This document shows, in pieces, positions 2,630 to 9,442 of a stretch of DNA of 27,747 bases. A program made the position numbers and the translations under genes. Numbering within the stretch: the stretch's first letter is position 1; each line of letters opens with the position of its first letter. The notes beneath the pieces are model-generated. The model was not told the DNA's origin. It saw nothing but the letters and a program-made list of their open reading frames with translations, and made no database searches. This stretch comes from a virus, in IMG/VR virus record IMGVR_UViG_3300023196_003206, positions 1 to 27,747 of that record. One strand, 5' to 3'.

Positions 2630-2857
2630 CTATTGCATTTTCTTCTGATCTGTCAACATTTGCAGATATTCCACTATTGCATCAATTGAAAAAGTGTTTC
2701 CAAAGCTTATTTCCTGCAGCTCCCCCCATGTCTCTTGGTCATCTTTCACCATGACGGGACCGAACAGCTGGTATTCGATGCCTGCCATTTTGATAGTGAC
2801 CTGCTGTAGCATGATGGGTGGGAGCCGGTTACCTGCCCATTGGGTTTTTACAGCCAT
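2630..2857 (-). CDS. hypothetical protein
   Basis: Encodes 75 residues with a beta-rich first half (MLQQVTIKMAGIEYQLFGPVM) and a helical second half ending DAIVEYLQMLTDQKKMQ. The start at 2857 has AGAGG about six bases upstream and overlaps the diphosphohydrolase-like gene by 29 bases; an internal Met at residue 16 is an alternative. No motif is recognised. Its overlap with the nucleotide-metabolism candidate implies co-expression only. Confidence 0.55.
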   Translation of the reverse strand: MAVKTQWAGNRLPPIMLQQVTIKMAGIEYQLFGPVMVKDDQETWGELQEISFGNTFSIDAIVEYLQMLTDQKKMQ

Positions 2858-3143
2858 CTGATGCCTCTGAGTTGACAGTTAATACAAACATCAAGGAGCA
2901 AATGGCATGAGCAAGGTGAGGAAGCCCGCTCTCTGGGTCGTATTCCTCCCCTTGCAAGTATGCGCTCATGTGCCGCAAAGCTGCCGCAGGATAGCGCTCA
3001 TCAGCGTGATCCACCCTGCGCCAGTTGTCAGGGCTATATTTACTTGCCCCGTACGTCAAAACTCGAACAACGTCATCTAATGCACGAAACGGCACAAGGT
3101 CGTAGCGCATTTTTTCCTGATCATTTTTTATTCCGGTTTCCAT
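2829..3143 (-). CDS. dATP/dGTP diphosphohydrolase-like protein (DUF5664/MazZ-type)
   Basis: Encodes 104 residues with the block order I associate with the DUF5664 (dATP/dGTP diphosphohydrolase N-terminal) family. K11 and RYDLVP are near the N-terminus, LTYGASKYSPDNW is at 29-41, ALRHMSAYLQGEE is at 55-67, and DPESGLPHLAHA is at 69-80. The conserved Asp, Glu and His residues in the last two blocks are likely metal or nucleotide ligands, in an all-alpha fold related to MazG-type pyrophosphatases. The expected reaction is hydrolysis of dGTP or dATP to the monophosphate plus pyrophosphate. The best-known members act in 2-aminoadenine (Z) synthesis, but relatives also occur in phages with ordinary DNA. 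The start has AAGAGG about eight bases upstream. No PurZ or DatZ gene is in this window. Confidence 0.7.
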   Translation of the reverse strand: METGIKNDQEKMRYDLVPFRALDDVVRVLTYGASKYSPDNWRRVDHADERYPAAALRHMSAYLQGEEYDPESGLPHLAHAICSLMFVLTVNSEASDGCKNPMGR

Positions 3144-3153
3144 TTTTTGCCTC

Positions 3154-3390
3154 TTACACAGGCTTTTGCGGGTCGACCAGAAATTTATAGCCCCCTATCC
3201 CAGACAGGTACTCTGTCTCATATGGAAGGCATTCTGTCCACTGGCGGGTGTTGCCCTCGGCGTTGTCATTTAGCACTTCCGGGGGGTCTATATAAGGGGC
3301 CACCGCATGTGTCTCACCGCACAATGTGCACACTAGGGTGGGGCCAATCGGGTCGCCCAGATAAGAGGGTTTTGGGAACGAATCAGTCAT
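3154..3390 (-). CDS. hypothetical protein with one CxxC pair
   Basis: Encodes 78 residues. A CTLCGETHAV segment near residue 21 contains a CxxC pair followed by a His, which could hold a metal but lacks an obvious second Cys pair. The rest is polar and rich in Pro, Gly and Tyr, suggesting a small, mostly extended protein. The start is well supported by AAGGAG about seven bases upstream. Not recognised. Confidence 0.6.
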   Translation of the reverse strand: MTDSFPKPSYLGDPIGPTLVCTLCGETHAVAPYIDPPEVLNDNAEGNTRQWTECLPYETEYLSGIGGYKFLVDPQKPV

Positions 3391-3416: not shown

Positions 3417-3620
3417 TTATCGTAGCAAACTTTGAGTGTGAGACTTCTGTAATTGTGAGAGCTGCAGCTTGCAGCTCTCAAATTCTAAGTGAGTACGGGC
3501 CCACTCAAGTCTCCATGTTCTTAACGCTTCTATTCGATCCGAAGCTATAAAAAGCGCCTCTTTTACTTCCTCGTTATCTGAAAGGGACGCAACAGTTTTT
3601 AAATAGTCCGTGTAGGTCAT
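3417..3620 (-). CDS. hypothetical helical protein
   Basis: Encodes 67 residues, almost entirely helical, with heptad-like Leu/Ala spacing through ALRTWRLEWARTHLEFE and a Leu/Gln-rich C-terminus (KLQLSQLQ). A short coiled coil is likely. The start follows the upstream stop by three bases and lacks a strong Shine-Dalgarno sequence, so translation is probably coupled to the previous gene. Function unknown. Confidence 0.5.
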   Translation of the reverse strand: MTYTDYLKTVASLSDNEEVKEALFIASDRIEALRTWRLEWARTHLEFESCKLQLSQLQKSHTQSLLR

Positions 3621-4501: not shown

Positions 4502-6370
4502 TCACTTCGCATCGCCCCAGCTTTTTCCAATTTCAACGTCTACTTTGCTGGGGACCTCAAGCGTGACGGCTGTTCTCATGATCTCCGCAGCTTCGCGCGC
4601 GTCCTCCATGTTGTCCACACTCAGCGCAATCTCATCATGGACCTGCAGCAGGATACGGAATCCGGCTTTGTGTAGGGCAACCATGGCGGCCTTGGTCTGA
4701 TCTGCCGCAGACCCTTGGATAAGCTTATTTAGGCCCTTGTATGTGGCTGCCCGCTTGACTCGCGCGCCATACTTGATGACAGCTTCTTGGTAAGGCAGCG
4801 CCTTGTTGATTCCCCACTCTGTAGGCTCCCATAATGGGAACCTGCACTTACGGCCCAAAAGAGTACGGATGGACCCTGCAGACGCCGGATGCTCAATGCG
4901 GCGCATAACAGCGTCTACGGTTCCGCGCAGGAATGGGACTTTCGCATGAAACACCTTCATCAGCTCGCCCGCTTCGTCTACAGGCAGGTCGAGCTGCGCG
5001 GCAAGCTTGGCTTTGCCCATGCCGTACATAAGGCCCAGACCAATAGTCTTTGCCTGCTTGCGTTTGATCCCCGCCATGTCCGCCACCATTTGGTGAAAGT
5101 CAGTATTAGGGTCCGCTCTGTACGCCTCCGCCATGTTTTCCGCACCGGGAAGCTTAAGTAGCGTGGCGTAGTGAACCAGCAATCGGGGTTCCTGTGAGCT
5201 AAAGTCATTTGCTGCCCACAGCTGGCCCTCTTCAGGCAAGAACAGAGAGCGCACCAGAGGCCCAATAATCTCGTGTCGGGCCGGGACTTGCTGTAGGTTA
5301 GGGTTGGACATGGAAAGGCGGCCCGTGACTGTCCCACCATTGTCTGAGCGCAGTTGGTTGACGTGAGGATGTATACGTCCATCAGCCTTGGAAAAATCTA
5401 AGTAGGGCTGCAGAAAAGTCCCGTGGGTCTTGTTGAGCTCTCGCGCTTCCACAATCATTTGAGCAACAGGATGCTCACATGCGTCTAACCAGCTCTTTGT
5501 AAAGCTTGGTACGTTGGTGTGAGTCTTAGGGTACGCAATTTTGAGGGCGTCAAATGCAATCGCAACGCTGGAAGCTGCCCAGATATCCACGCTGTAACCG
5601 GTGGCCTTTCGTATGTCCTTGAGCAGCTGCTCTTCCCGTGTTTTGTAATCAGCTATCACGCGCTGCGCCTTGTCCCGGTCAAACCGAATACCCTTCATTG
5701 TGAGCTCAACAAAAATAGGAAGTAACTCGGTCTCCAGACTGAACATGGACTCGACTTCTTCTTGCGCCAACACCGTTTTAAGGTGACGCCAAAGTTTCAA
5801 GGTAAGCGCTGCGTCCTGCTCTGCGTAATTTCCCACATACATCGCAGGAAGTTTCCAGAGCTCTTTTTTAGGGTGCACTCCAAAGTCACTCGCAGCTTCT
5901 TTAAGGCCTTGCTCTGACTTAACCTCTTTAAGGTAATCAAAGCCAAGCGTGTTCAGGCTAAAGGAGAACCTGTTTTCGTCAATGAGCGGGGCCGCCAACA
6001 TCGTATCAATGATGCGTCCGGAAATGGTAAATCCACTGGCAAGCAACCATCCGGAATCATAGGCCGCGTTATGCATTACCTTGTCTGCAGGAGTGGCCAA
6101 GACTTTTTTGATCCAGCGTTCCACGACGCCACGATCAAGGTTTCCGCCGCCCGCATGTGCAACAGGGTAATACCCTGACCATCCGTCAACTGCTATGGCG
6201 TATCCAACAATGTAGCCATCGTTACGGGGCCACCCCGGGCCCATGCTCTCCAAGTGAGGGTCACACGTCTCAAGGTCAATTGCGATTTCTTTAGCGTCAG
6301 ATAGGTCAGGAAAATGGCTAGGTGGGAGCCACTCAGCAGACGTGGGAAAAAGAGACATAGTCCGGTTCAT
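4502..6370 (-). CDS. polA: family A DNA polymerase with 3'-5' exonuclease domain
   Basis: Encodes 622 residues. The N-terminal DnaQ-like proofreading domain has Exo I IDLET (D32, E34), Exo II HNAAYD (100-105) and Exo III YAEQD (182-186). The polymerase domain has TGRLSMSNPNLQQVP (349-363), motif A NDFSSQEPR (388-396, catalytic D389), motif B RKQAKTIGLGLMYG (437-450) and motif C VHDE (577-580). All metal ligands are present, so both activities are expected. In motif B, R437, K441 and Y449 align with E. coli R754, K758 and Y766, placing Leu445 at the Phe762 position. The motif A variant SSQEPR replaces the usual SQIELR but keeps the Glu. There is no 5'-nuclease domain. The start shares ATGA with the helicase stop; it is the last gene before the terminator. 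Confidence 0.96.
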   Translation of the reverse strand: MNRTMSLFPTSAEWLPPSHFPDLSDAKEIAIDLETCDPHLESMGPGWPRNDGYIVGYAIAVDGWSGYYPVAHAGGGNLDRGVVERWIKKVLATPADKVMHNAAYDSGWLLASGFTISGRIIDTMLAAPLIDENRFSFSLNTLGFDYLKEVKSEQGLKEAASDFGVHPKKELWKLPAMYVGNYAEQDAALTLKLWRHLKTVLAQEEVESMFSLETELLPIFVELTMKGIRFDRDKAQRVIADYKTREEQLLKDIRKATGYSVDIWAASSVAIAFDALKIAYPKTHTNVPSFTKSWLDACEHPVAQMIVEARELNKTHGTFLQPYLDFSKADGRIHPHVNQLRSDNGGTVTGRLSMSNPNLQQVPARHEIIGPLVRSLFLPEEGQLWAANDFSSQEPRLLVHYATLLKLPGAENMAEAYRADPNTDFHQMVADMAGIKRKQAKTIGLGLMYGMGKAKLAAQLDLPVDEAGELMKVFHAKVPFLRGTVDAVMRRIEHPASAGSIRTLLGRKCRFPLWEPTEWGINKALPYQEAVIKYGARVKRAATYKGLNKLIQGSAADQTKAAMVALHKAGFRILLQVHDEIALSVDNMEDAREAAEIMRTAVTLEVPSKVDVEIGKSWGDAK

Positions 6371-7866
6371 AACCTGAAACCCTTGTATTCGTTCTTTGGC
6401 AGAACTAAATGAAGTGATTGACGTGTTCGAGTCACGCCTACGTAAAGCAGTCGATTGATATCATCGGAATTGGTGTTGTAAGCCGCAGCCGACTTACTGG
6501 ATAGATCCGTAAGCAAAAGTACATTGTCCGCTTCACCGCCTTTAGCCCCATGGATCGTGGAAAGTTTGATGGAGATTTTCCCCGACAGTTTTGTGCCGCG
6601 CCGCAGCATTGCAATCAAATAGTCCCGCTTCTCCTCGCCTATTTTTGTCAACACGTTATGCCAGATCCCATTGGTCAACAAGCCGTGGTCCTTGGTCAGT
6701 GACTCCAATGTAAAGAAGCCTTCCGGGTTAACATTCCGAAGCGTTTTGTGACCGCGAGTTACAAACTCTGTTCCAATATGCTTGTATATCTGTTGGAGCA
6801 CAGAGAAAGGCACTTCTTTGCCCTTTCGCAGGGCCTCCCACCCCATTACAGCATTCAGTACAGCCTCAGAGACACTCCGGTGGCCATGCCGCTCAAACAA
6901 CAGGCCTTGGCTCTTTATCCAGTTGTGCATGTCGTTGAGCATGTAATTGGCCGAAGCCATGATCAGCCACTCGCCGTTTGTGATGTCGACATGCTCATAG
7001 GCGTTGTAGTACTTGATGTCCCCTTCAAACTCACGCGGGTTCCAGTTCTTGGCCTGTCGTGTGCGAATACGATTAACAATGGTATTTGCCAACGCGTGAA
7101 CTTTTGCGGGCACGCGGTAGGACTGCTCGAGAATGACAATATCGCCTTCAAACGCTAAAAAGCTGTTTACGTCGGCCCCCGCCCAAGTGTAGATTGCTTG
7201 GTCATCATCCCCGGCTAAAAAAGCTCGCTGGGCCCTCATTGCAAGGTTTGACACAAGTGTCCACTGAAGTCGAGAAAGGTCCTGTGCCTCATCGATTACC
7301 AGCACTTCTAGGCTCGGTAAAAGGTGTGGCATTTCATTAATCTTTTCCAGTAGGTCCGTGAAATCCATTAGGGATTTCGATTCTTTGTACTGGCGGTACG
7401 CGCGTTCCACGTACTCAAAGTGGAACCACTCGATCTTCATCTCACTGCTGTTGTAGTGCTCGCGCAAATCTTTGCCACGAATGCGCGCAATGTTGATCTC
7501 GTTAAGGATTGGGTGATCCGCCTTGACCATGAAGTCTTCGTCGCCGCTTTCAATTGAAAGCTCCAGCCCTGCTTCTCTGGCAAATTCCACGTAATGCTCT
7601 GTCCGCATCATGTCCTTGGTCGTGATGCCAAGGCAGCGATACGCCAAACTATGTAGCGTCCTAAACCATGGGAAGTCCGTTGCCTCATTTAAAGCGGGAA
7701 ACTTCGTTATTGCACGTTCTTTAGCCTCAGTGGCAGCTTTGCGAGTAAAGGCAAAATAGCCGATCTGTGTGGGATGGGTGCCATCCAAAAGCTCTGCCTC
7801 TATCATGCGCAGGAGGTAAGTTGTTTTCCCGGATCCGGGCGGGCCAAATACTTTGATCGTGCTCAT
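6367..7866 (-). CDS. UvrD/Rep-like superfamily 1 DNA helicase
   Basis: Encodes 499 residues with the SF1A motif set in order: Walker A GPPGSGKT (8-15), motif Ia FAFTRKAATEAKERA (38-52), FRTLHSLAYR (68-77), Walker B DEAQD (192-196), motif III GDDDQAIYTWAGAD (219-232), motif IV QSYRVP (248-253), motif V STIHGAKGGEAD (436-447) and motif VI LLYVGVTRTRQSL (473-485). It is shorter than cellular UvrD (about 720 residues), as in many phage versions. It should translocate on single-stranded DNA and unwind duplex at the phage fork or in repair. The start shares one base with the primase stop (TGATG) and the stop shares ATGA with the polymerase, so primase, helicase and polymerase are translationally coupled. 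Confidence 0.93.
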   Translation of the reverse strand: MSTIKVFGPPGSGKTTYLLRMIEAELLDGTHPTQIGYFAFTRKAATEAKERAITKFPALNEATDFPWFRTLHSLAYRCLGITTKDMMRTEHYVEFAREAGLELSIESGDEDFMVKADHPILNEINIARIRGKDLREHYNSSEMKIEWFHFEYVERAYRQYKESKSLMDFTDLLEKINEMPHLLPSLEVLVIDEAQDLSRLQWTLVSNLAMRAQRAFLAGDDDQAIYTWAGADVNSFLAFEGDIVILEQSYRVPAKVHALANTIVNRIRTRQAKNWNPREFEGDIKYYNAYEHVDITNGEWLIMASANYMLNDMHNWIKSQGLLFERHGHRSVSEAVLNAVMGWEALRKGKEVPFSVLQQIYKHIGTEFVTRGHKTLRNVNPEGFFTLESLTKDHGLLTNGIWHNVLTKIGEEKRDYLIAMLRRGTKLSGKISIKLSTIHGAKGGEADNVLLLTDLSSKSAAAYNTNSDDINRLLYVGVTRTRQSLHLVLPKNEYKGFRL

Positions 7867-9395
7867 CAGAACGGACTCCCTTTTTGCATTTCTGGAGTGT
7901 CAAACGGCGCATCCTGTCGATCAAAGCGCGGAAGCCTCCACACCCGAGTTGTGCGACCCTTCAGAAACAAGCTAATAGGCTCTCCGCTCATGTCGCGAAG
8001 TCGTTGAGCCATCTTAGGGGCAGTCATGCCGATAAAATTGTTGCGCTTTAAGTGGGCTTCAAGGTCCTTAATTCTCATGTAGACCTTGCCTTCTTCCTCA
8101 TTGGTCCAAGGGCGGCCCATCAAAATCTCGTCCCTATCAATCGCCTGTTGCAAGTGCGTGCAGAACTCTTCCACAAGGTCAGCAAAACGGCCAGATATGC
8201 TCGTGTCTTCAGAGGCGTCTTGAATCTGTTCAAGCTCCACCATTTCCGAAAGCAGCGCATTCAGCAGCTGTTCCCAATCCTGTTTTTTAAGGGTAGGGGG
8301 CAGCAGGTTCAGCTTTTCCATGCACGCCTTCTGGAAGAATGCTTGATTAAAAAAGTGGTCAGTGTCCAGCTCGATCCGCTTAGAGTTGACATCTAAGAAC
8401 CACAAGGGCGGCTCAGAGTTGTACTTAGATAGTGAGCCCAGCTGCGGGGAGTCTGGGCCATCTCCCCCAATCCCATATTTCCGCGTCCGGCACAGGCCAG
8501 AGTTGCAAAAGGAGTTGAGCGGGGCATCCTTACACTTGTACTTGTAGTCTTTTTTATTGAGCTGCTTGATGATGATCTGCAGCTCGGCGTTACCAAGAGG
8601 CGGCCCAAAGTACTTCTGGTTGTACTCCATCAGCTTATCTTCCCAACTGACTATGTTGACGCGTTTTAAATAGATGCCAAGGCTAAACAAGCCGTTATTT
8701 CGGGTGCCCTCTGGGAACCCTTGAGAGCAAAGCGCTTGCAAACATGGAGGTCCGTCTTTTACAGGGTGCTCAGGCTCCGGCGCAGCCTCTGGGAATTTTA
8801 CAGGGGTGTCTTGGACATACCTCTCGTATAACTCATAAAACTCTTCTAGCGAGGCACTTGATCCGTCGTCCTTGATGCCGTAGCGAAGGGACTCATCCCC
8901 GCCAAAATACGGCAGGTTTAGAAAGTTCCCGGTGTCACCGCGCTCAACTAAAATTTCAGATTGCTTTGGAAATATTTCTCGCCCCGCTTCGCCAAGTAGA
9001 GCCGCAACAGACTTTAGATACCGCTGCATCTCGGAGGCAGCGATAGGCTCTTTTGTAAAAAGAAACACGTGCGCGCCGCCTGACTTGCTTCGGCACACAA
9101 CAAGGGGCAGTTCCAACTTACGTATTTTTGTGACTAGGCCAAGCAGGTCCAAAGGGTACTGGTCAATGTCGACACAGCCCCAAATACAACTGTTGTCCGC
9201 TCGGATGGGGATGATGCCCAGACTAGGCTCTACGCCGTCAAGGTGTTTTTGCCAAAGGTCATCAGTTGGGGCTTTGCGGACAACAACAGCTTTTCCTGCT
9301 TGCTTGCCGTTGTCTTTAGCCTTCTCAATTCGATATGTGCCGTAGGCTATATCGAGTCCTGCGAAGATCGCTTGGAACCGGGTGATATCTGTCAT
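7866..9395 (-). CDS. archaeo-eukaryotic-type (AEP) primase, TOTE-like
   Basis: Encodes 509 residues from the ATG at 9395; the longer reading to 9440 would start inside the terminator hairpin. The AEP catalytic core shows VDID (D76, D78), SGGAHVF (105-111, with His109) and RGDTGNFLNLPYFGGD (152-167), the three motifs for metal binding and nucleotide transfer. A PriCT-like segment follows (about 216-245, with GFPEGTRNNGLFSLGIYLKR) and then cysteines at 288, 297 and 302, which with C218 or C223 could hold zinc or an Fe-S cluster. The C-terminal 150 residues are not recognised. It should synthesise primers, and may also extend DNA as AEP enzymes can. No helicase domain is fused; separate helicases flank it. 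It ends with the tip GSPF. Confidence 0.85.
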   Translation of the reverse strand: MTDITRFQAIFAGLDIAYGTYRIEKAKDNGKQAGKAVVVRKAPTDDLWQKHLDGVEPSLGIIPIRADNSCIWGCVDIDQYPLDLLGLVTKIRKLELPLVVCRSKSGGAHVFLFTKEPIAASEMQRYLKSVAALLGEAGREIFPKQSEILVERGDTGNFLNLPYFGGDESLRYGIKDDGSSASLEEFYELYERYVQDTPVKFPEAAPEPEHPVKDGPPCLQALCSQGFPEGTRNNGLFSLGIYLKRVNIVSWEDKLMEYNQKYFGPPLGNAELQIIIKQLNKKDYKYKCKDAPLNSFCNSGLCRTRKYGIGGDGPDSPQLGSLSKYNSEPPLWFLDVNSKRIELDTDHFFNQAFFQKACMEKLNLLPPTLKKQDWEQLLNALLSEMVELEQIQDASEDTSISGRFADLVEEFCTHLQQAIDRDEILMGRPWTNEEEGKVYMRIKDLEAHLKRNNFIGMTAPKMAQRLRDMSGEPISLFLKGRTTRVWRLPRFDRQDAPFDTPEMQKGSPF

Positions 9396-9410
9396 TATAA
9401 CTTTCTCGGT

Positions 9411-9438
9411 ATAAAAAGCGGGGGCACAAGGCCCCCGC
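9411..9438 (-). terminator. intrinsic terminator between SSB-like gene and primase
   Basis: A perfect 8-bp GC-rich stem (GCGGGGGC at 9418-9425 with GCCCCCGC at 9431-9438, five-base loop) is followed on the minus strand by TTTTTAT. It lies four bases after the SSB-like stop and about 16 bases before the primase start. No convincing promoter for the primase was found after it, so it may act partially, lowering primase-helicase-polymerase expression relative to the upstream proteins. Confidence 0.8.
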
Positions 9439-9442
9439 AAGA

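Follow-up and report, generated by a model that had tools for sequence, protein, structure and literature searches.

The DUF5664 gene and its neighbourhood

The window, that is, the whole stretch of DNA analysed here, is the entire virus record IMGVR_UViG_3300023196_003206, a linear contig of 27,747 bp. It holds part of a genome which measures about 60 kb in relatives, in agreement with an earlier sequence-only reading of this DNA, which had taken the genome to be incomplete. On the minus strand, at positions 2829–3143, an open reading frame with an ATG start encodes a stand-alone DUF5664 protein of 104 residues, a predicted dATP/dUTP/dGTP pyrophosphohydrolase. The Pfam family PF18909 (dGTP_diPhyd_N, or DUF5664) covers residues 2–92 (E-value 2.5e-32, 111.2 bits for a gathering cut-off of 27), and the match takes in positions 2–91 of the 99 positions of the profile. 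The sequence-only reading had recognised the DUF5664 pattern in this frame, and the profile match confirms it at exactly these coordinates and on this strand. The best PHROG is number 801, "dATP / dGTP pyrophosphohydrolase" (E 3.4e-38). NCBIfam recognises neither the window protein nor the DUF5664 proteins of phages SH-Ab 15497 (MazZ) and Wayne, nor the fusion protein of locus L040 (see below), and PADLOC likewise finds nothing for the window protein and three of its neighbours.

The frame is a real gene. The plus strand of 2829–3143 has stops, and the sequence AGAGG lies 6 nt upstream of the ATG. Comparison with the homologous genes of L004 and G043 by the Nei-Gojobori method gives pN values of 0.15 and 0.14, versus pS values of 0.66 and 0.87, respectively, which indicates that the protein is under purifying selection. 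This selection, the AGAGG sequence and the kept gene order rule out a chance frame.

The surrounding genes are on the same strand. A 75-residue frame without a Pfam match (2630–2857) is directly downstream of the DUF5664 gene, whose end it overlaps, and a 78-residue frame with neither Pfam nor PHROG match (3154–3390) is directly upstream; both also adjoin DUF5664 in L004, L005 and G043. Further out are a 70-residue frame (2403–2615), a frame with a YuA_Gp49 domain (PF20788, 2152–2499), and a 67-residue frame (3417–3620) which is also present in the phage DSL-LC04, where DUF5664 is missing. The YuA_Gp49 domain starts at residue 38, so that the true start of this frame is probably further in. 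Homologues of these five frames flank DUF5664 in L004, L005 and G043 in the same order. A cell wall hydrolase gene (PF07486, E 6.7e-26) is found at 1436–1939, also on the minus strand, amid small genes beside the replication module.

The conserved block sits downstream of a canonical polymerase gene. The latter (4502–6370, minus strand) encodes a family A DNA polymerase with a 3'-5' exonuclease domain (PF00476 and PF01612), as the sequence-only reading had stated, and is accompanied by genes for a UvrD-family helicase (6367–7866, minus strand; PF00580, PHROG 1967) and an AEP-type primase (7866–9440, minus strand; PF22548, PHROG 21866).

Architecture and conserved residues

The window protein had been described from the sequence alone as "MazZ-type". 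MazZ from Acinetobacter phage SH-Ab 15497 is a protein of 385 residues which has DUF5664 at 3–98 and a C-terminal DUF550 at 170–244, and its gene adjoins PurZ and DatZ. Its N-terminal DUF5664 domain has the same core motif as the window protein (33% identity over 78 residues). However, DUF550 (PF04447) is absent from the 104-residue protein, and the "MazZ-type" architecture is rejected on this ground. The search for DUF550 gave no match in the whole window, in G043 or in DSL-LC04, and two of ten Z phages scored over the cut-off.

The window protein is a bare DUF5664 domain, and it therefore resembles the protein from Arthrobacter phage Wayne (ALY10775.1, gp51) rather than MazZ. The Wayne protein, of 198 residues, has PF18909 as its sole Pfam domain (98–195), no DUF550, and the same core motif residues. 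It differs from the window protein by an additional N-terminal part of 97 residues, and the two are 37% identical over 91 residues. The Wayne gene lies beside PurZ0 and a DmtZ-DutZ fusion according to the available text of PMC12884076, whereas neither was found in the window.

Residues G32, K35, Y36, H58, D69 and H76 are invariant in all 42 aligned DUF5664 domains, which include those of Wayne, SH-Ab 15497 and the window. N40, W41 and R57, which the window protein has, are identical in 41 of the 42. Residue 11 is a lysine in the window protein and a glutamate in the Wayne row, so that K11 does not count among the essential residues common to the family.

Fold

The AlphaFold2 model of the 104-residue protein has high confidence (pLDDT 88.7, pTM 0.78) and is nearly all helical. 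Foldseek finds no match in the PDB at E ≤ 0.001; MazZ from phage S-2L (7ody) is among the weak matches. With VIA-align, AF0060 (2p06) ranks first, with a Z score of 7.2 over 78 residues at 3.6 Å, a weak value, as is any Z below about 13 when the model is helical. MazG (1vmg), DCTPP1 and S-2L MazZ (7ody) have Z scores of 3.5–3.8 (7ody 3.5, 1vmg 3.8), amid unrelated helical proteins. The available text of PMC4030988 lists 2P06 in the all-alpha NTP pyrophosphatase superfamily.

Among solved structures, a search with the single sequence returned just two sub-significant matches to seryl-tRNA synthetase (E 0.07), and a profile search with the window protein returned none. S-2L MazZ and the NTP pyrophosphohydrolases of the MazG-HisE fold are all-helical and catalyse the type of reaction predicted here. 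MazG-type enzymes have an ExxE...ExxD pattern. The window protein differs from them in that its sequence matches no MazG-type enzyme of solved structure and has the conserved H58, D69 and H76 with no clear ExxE...ExxD. Based on the model, it is plausible that the protein is a divergent MazG-like enzyme with the all-alpha NTP pyrophosphohydrolase fold (that of MazG, HisE and dimeric dUTPase).

Relatives of the phage

The closest relative by polymerase among the 80 loci listed is G043 (IMGVR_UViG_3300020200_000001), with 83% identity. It is 60,489 bp long and has an exact direct terminal repeat of 127 bp. The phage DSL-LC04 is circular, complete and 61,547 bp long. G043 is taken as complete because of its terminal repeat and of its size, which is near that of DSL-LC04. 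Its DUF5664 protein is 76% identical to that of the window, and some 1.8 kb separate the DUF5664 and polymerase genes; the DUF5664 proteins of G043, L004 and L005 have 76–78% identity to the window protein and the same gene order. L005 is another carrier of DUF5664, and its partial polymerase gene is 80% identical to that of the window, which places the polymerases of G043 and L005 at 80–83%.

DSL-LC04 has no DUF5664 gene. The presence of DUF5664 was checked in 45 of the 80 polymerase relatives and that of PF00709 in 29 of the 80, the longer records being chosen. G043 is the only one of these 45 records, many of which are fragments, to have DUF5664, so that the gene is dispensable in this lineage.

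A Pfam scan of 73 frames of at least 60 residues in G043 (E-value limits of 1e-4 for two batches and 1e-6 for the third) lists DUF5664 as the sole family of nucleotide metabolism, and none of base modification. G043 also has a bilin/heme-oxygenase gene cluster, located outside the DUF5664 region. This cluster, on the minus strand at 4902–5597, 5627–6169, 6174–6707 and 6710–7375 (within G043:1-20000), matches a ferredoxin-dependent bilin reductase (PF05996, 1.3e-18), a heme oxygenase (PF01126, 2.8e-12) and two 2OG-Fe(II) oxygenases; aquatic phages with tetrapyrrole genes and PcyX are already described in the literature. In L146 (phage 023Pt_psg01) and L148 (HTVC027P), which have related polymerases, the next gene is annotated as PurM (phosphoribosylaminoimidazole synthetase), an enzyme of purine synthesis.

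Does the phage have a Z genome?

The sequence-only reading had raised the possibility of a 2-aminoadenine (Z) genome, while pointing out that PurZ and DatZ are missing from the window. The latter point holds: neither PF00709 (PurZ/PurA) nor PF12917 (DatZ) has a match there. Their absence inside the window proves little since the window is a fragment, and relatives were therefore used. PF00709 is also without a match in G043 and DSL-LC04, whereas the same searches pick out SH-Ab 15497, phiVC8 and Wayne and the family is found in all ten Z phages used as controls. Similarly, PF12917 has no match in G043 or DSL-LC04, and matches eight of the ten Z phages.

The polymerase had been suggested as a candidate for comparison with DpoZ in a tree. 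This comparison was made with 19 family A polymerases, ten of them encoded by phages that have PF00709 and nine by phages that do not. The tyrosine of helix O is kept in all nine phages that lack PurZ, including that of the window. A phenylalanine is found at this position in nine of the ten PurZ phages, the exception being Ochrobactrum phage OH, which has PF00709 and a long branch and was kept in the counts; the available text of PMC8599892 describes this phenylalanine as common to both DpoZ clades. The window polymerase has none of the insertions around helix O that are seen in phiVC8-like DpoZ. A branch of the tree with support 98/100 has all nine PurZ-less rows, the window among them, on one side, and seven DpoZ of the phiVC8/SH-Ab type are set apart by another (99/99). 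Judging from its sequence, the window polymerase is outside the DpoZ groups.

The tree of DUF5664 points in the same direction. The window protein groups with those of L004, G043, L006 and L007, within a set of 29 rows without PurZ (97/92). The two groups that contain Z phages are separate from it: Wayne is placed with Breylor17 and Mufasa (100/96), and VLCpiS6a with SH-Ab 15497 (99/98). The deep branches of this tree are unsure, the domain being short, and the "noPurZ" labels of contigs rest partly on fragments. According to the available text of PMC12884076, the Z phages hold two separate DUF5664 groups, with relatives in Arthrobacter phages that have canonical DNA.

For the phage to have a Z genome, PurZ, with DatZ or other partners, would have to be in the missing half of the genome, and DUF5664 would clear dATP and dGTP. 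That the record is a 27.7-kb fragment is in favour of this idea, as is the occurrence of DUF5664 in the Z phages SH-Ab 15497, VLCpiS6a and Wayne; moreover, the polymerase of DSL-LC04 is among the closer non-DpoZ matches of SH-Ab DpoZ, with 28% identity. These points are set against the nearest complete relatives, G043, which keeps the DUF5664 gene, and DSL-LC04, which does not have it, both of them without PF00709 or PF12917, and against the helix-O tyrosine and the position of the window in the two trees. On the searches for PurZ, DatZ and DUF550 in the window and its relatives, the motif and tree of the polymerase and the tree of DUF5664, a Z genome is rejected as very unlikely indeed. What stands of the sequence-only reading as a whole is thus the assignment to the DUF5664 family, and not the MazZ label or the Z genome.

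Distribution of DUF5664 in phages without PurZ

The tblastn search with the window protein matched 1549 of 50,697 phage records, and the search with SH-Ab PurZ found PurA/PurZ-like genes in 217 of the same number, the two values being totals of separate lists and not a record-by-record overlap. PF00709 is absent from all 43 DUF5664 records of IMG/VR searched, the window included (of the other 42, 18 have a length of 30 kb or more and the rest are shorter), and was matched in three of three Z phages. It is likewise absent from eight of eight named phages that carry DUF5664 and whose record titles say "complete genome" (CRP-821, Clickz, PVA1, KF-1, Breylor17, Mufasa, PHL301M00 and Pan1), with Wayne as a positive control. 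The window protein is a new member of a widespread and already known family of phage enzymes. The automatic annotation "dATP/dGTP diphosphohydrolase" suggests Z-DNA, but the DUF5664 domain alone is a poor marker of it, given 1549 records versus 217 with PurA/PurZ-like genes.

Predicted activity and role

The sequence-only reading had stated that studied DUF5664 members clear dATP and dGTP. This agrees with the available text of PMC12884076, where the purified stand-alone DUF5664 protein of Wayne converts dATP, dUTP and dGTP to monophosphates, with kcat values of 0.48, 0.22 and 0.053 s−1, respectively. The window enzyme is probably active. We infer its activity from this assayed homologue, as well as a metal mechanism, a substrate order and a physiological role. 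The enzyme would split dNTPs into monophosphate and pyrophosphate with a divalent metal, its substrates being most likely dATP and dUTP and, to a lesser extent, dGTP. It may serve in the control or sanitation of the nucleotide pool during replication, where dUTP and excess or damaged purine dNTPs would be kept low, and the dNMPs would go back to host kinases. The DNA of the phage would consist of ordinary A, T, G and C. That the protein is an ordinary dATP/dUTP/dGTP pyrophosphohydrolase devoted to pool control in a phage with normal DNA appears the probable explanation, and we hold it with reasonable confidence, in view of the family match, the invariant residues, the assay of the Wayne protein, the kept gene block and its selection, and the lack of PF00709 in the DUF5664 records searched and of Z genes in G043.

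Gene neighbours give weak backing to a role in nucleotide metabolism: among 109 frames near DUF5664 in 28 loci, three encode ThyX (Thy1) and one a dUTPase (four of 109 in all). In KF-1, thymidylate synthase is encoded two genes upstream of DUF5664. In Mycobacterium phage Mufasa (L159), a gene annotated as nucleoside deoxyribosyltransferase precedes the DUF5664 gene, and the protein at 2204–2836 of this locus seemingly has two DUF5664-like stretches, the first one degenerate.

In some loci, DUF5664 is the first part of a larger protein. The proteins encoded in L038 (9965–10876) and L040 (3163–4023) have, after DUF5664, a stretch that contains a DxDGVLAxF motif. The L040 protein is identical in L041, L042 and L045, that of L043 is close, and that of L044 is not of the fusion type. 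The match of this second region to NT5C reaches 17.0 and 21.4 bits, under the cut-off of 24.8. A profile search of solved structures with the fusion protein gave nothing useful, and its AlphaFold model is poor (pLDDT 46). As a lead, the second region may be regarded as a putative 5'-nucleotidase, in which case the fusion would pair the conversion of dNTP to dNMP with the dephosphorylation of dNMP.

Several points count against the pool-control explanation: the greater length and low identity of the Wayne protein, the difference at residue 11, the weak backing from gene neighbours, the presence of DUF5664 in one of 45 polymerase relatives, and the hydrolysis of dATP, which looks costly to a phage that needs dATP. 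The main natural substrate could be something other than dATP or dGTP, for instance dUTP, the protein then acting as a phage dUTPase, or oxidised or deaminated nucleotides, or a host signalling nucleotide. The Wayne enzyme cleaves dUTP too (PMC12884076, available text), no dUTPase family is listed for the 73 frames of G043 that were scanned, and the wide spread of DUF5664 in phages without PurZ calls for a role unrelated to Z. However, the activity reported in the same text is on dATP, dUTP and dGTP, and a dUTPase is encoded near DUF5664 in one locus (one of the 109 frames), so that the two are not exclusive substitutes. This change of substrate seems rather unlikely.

Even further from expectation is a binding or regulatory protein devoid of enzymatic activity, such as an inhibitor of RNA polymerase, which we consider highly improbable. 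It would account for the matches to PHROGs 2252 and 5033, both of which carry the label "endolysin; inhibits RNA polymerase" (E 1.3e-30 and 2.6e-26), but the nucleotide pyrophosphohydrolase family PHROG 801 gives the stronger match (3.4e-38), the invariant charged residues are kept, and the word "endolysin" fits no amidase or lysozyme domain in the 104-residue protein. The label found on DUF5664 proteins (PHROG 2252, PHROG 5033 and records such as NC_018269 and NC_022330) has probably been carried over by mistake.

Significance for the family

On the preferred explanation, pool control by a dNTP pyrophosphohydrolase, purifying selection maintains in phages of ordinary DNA an enzyme by which dATP is probably destroyed. 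We tentatively consider, as a possibility that is less likely than not to be correct, that ordinary-DNA phages widely carry DUF5664 as an accessory dNTP hydrolase with a role that has gone unrecognised, and that Z phages recruited it at least two times from this reservoir. Candidate roles would then be the removal of dUTP or damaged nucleotides, the starvation of the host for dNTPs, or the hydrolysis of a host signal nucleotide. If this is true, the 104-residue form would be the minimal catalytic unit of the family, useful for the study of its mechanism.
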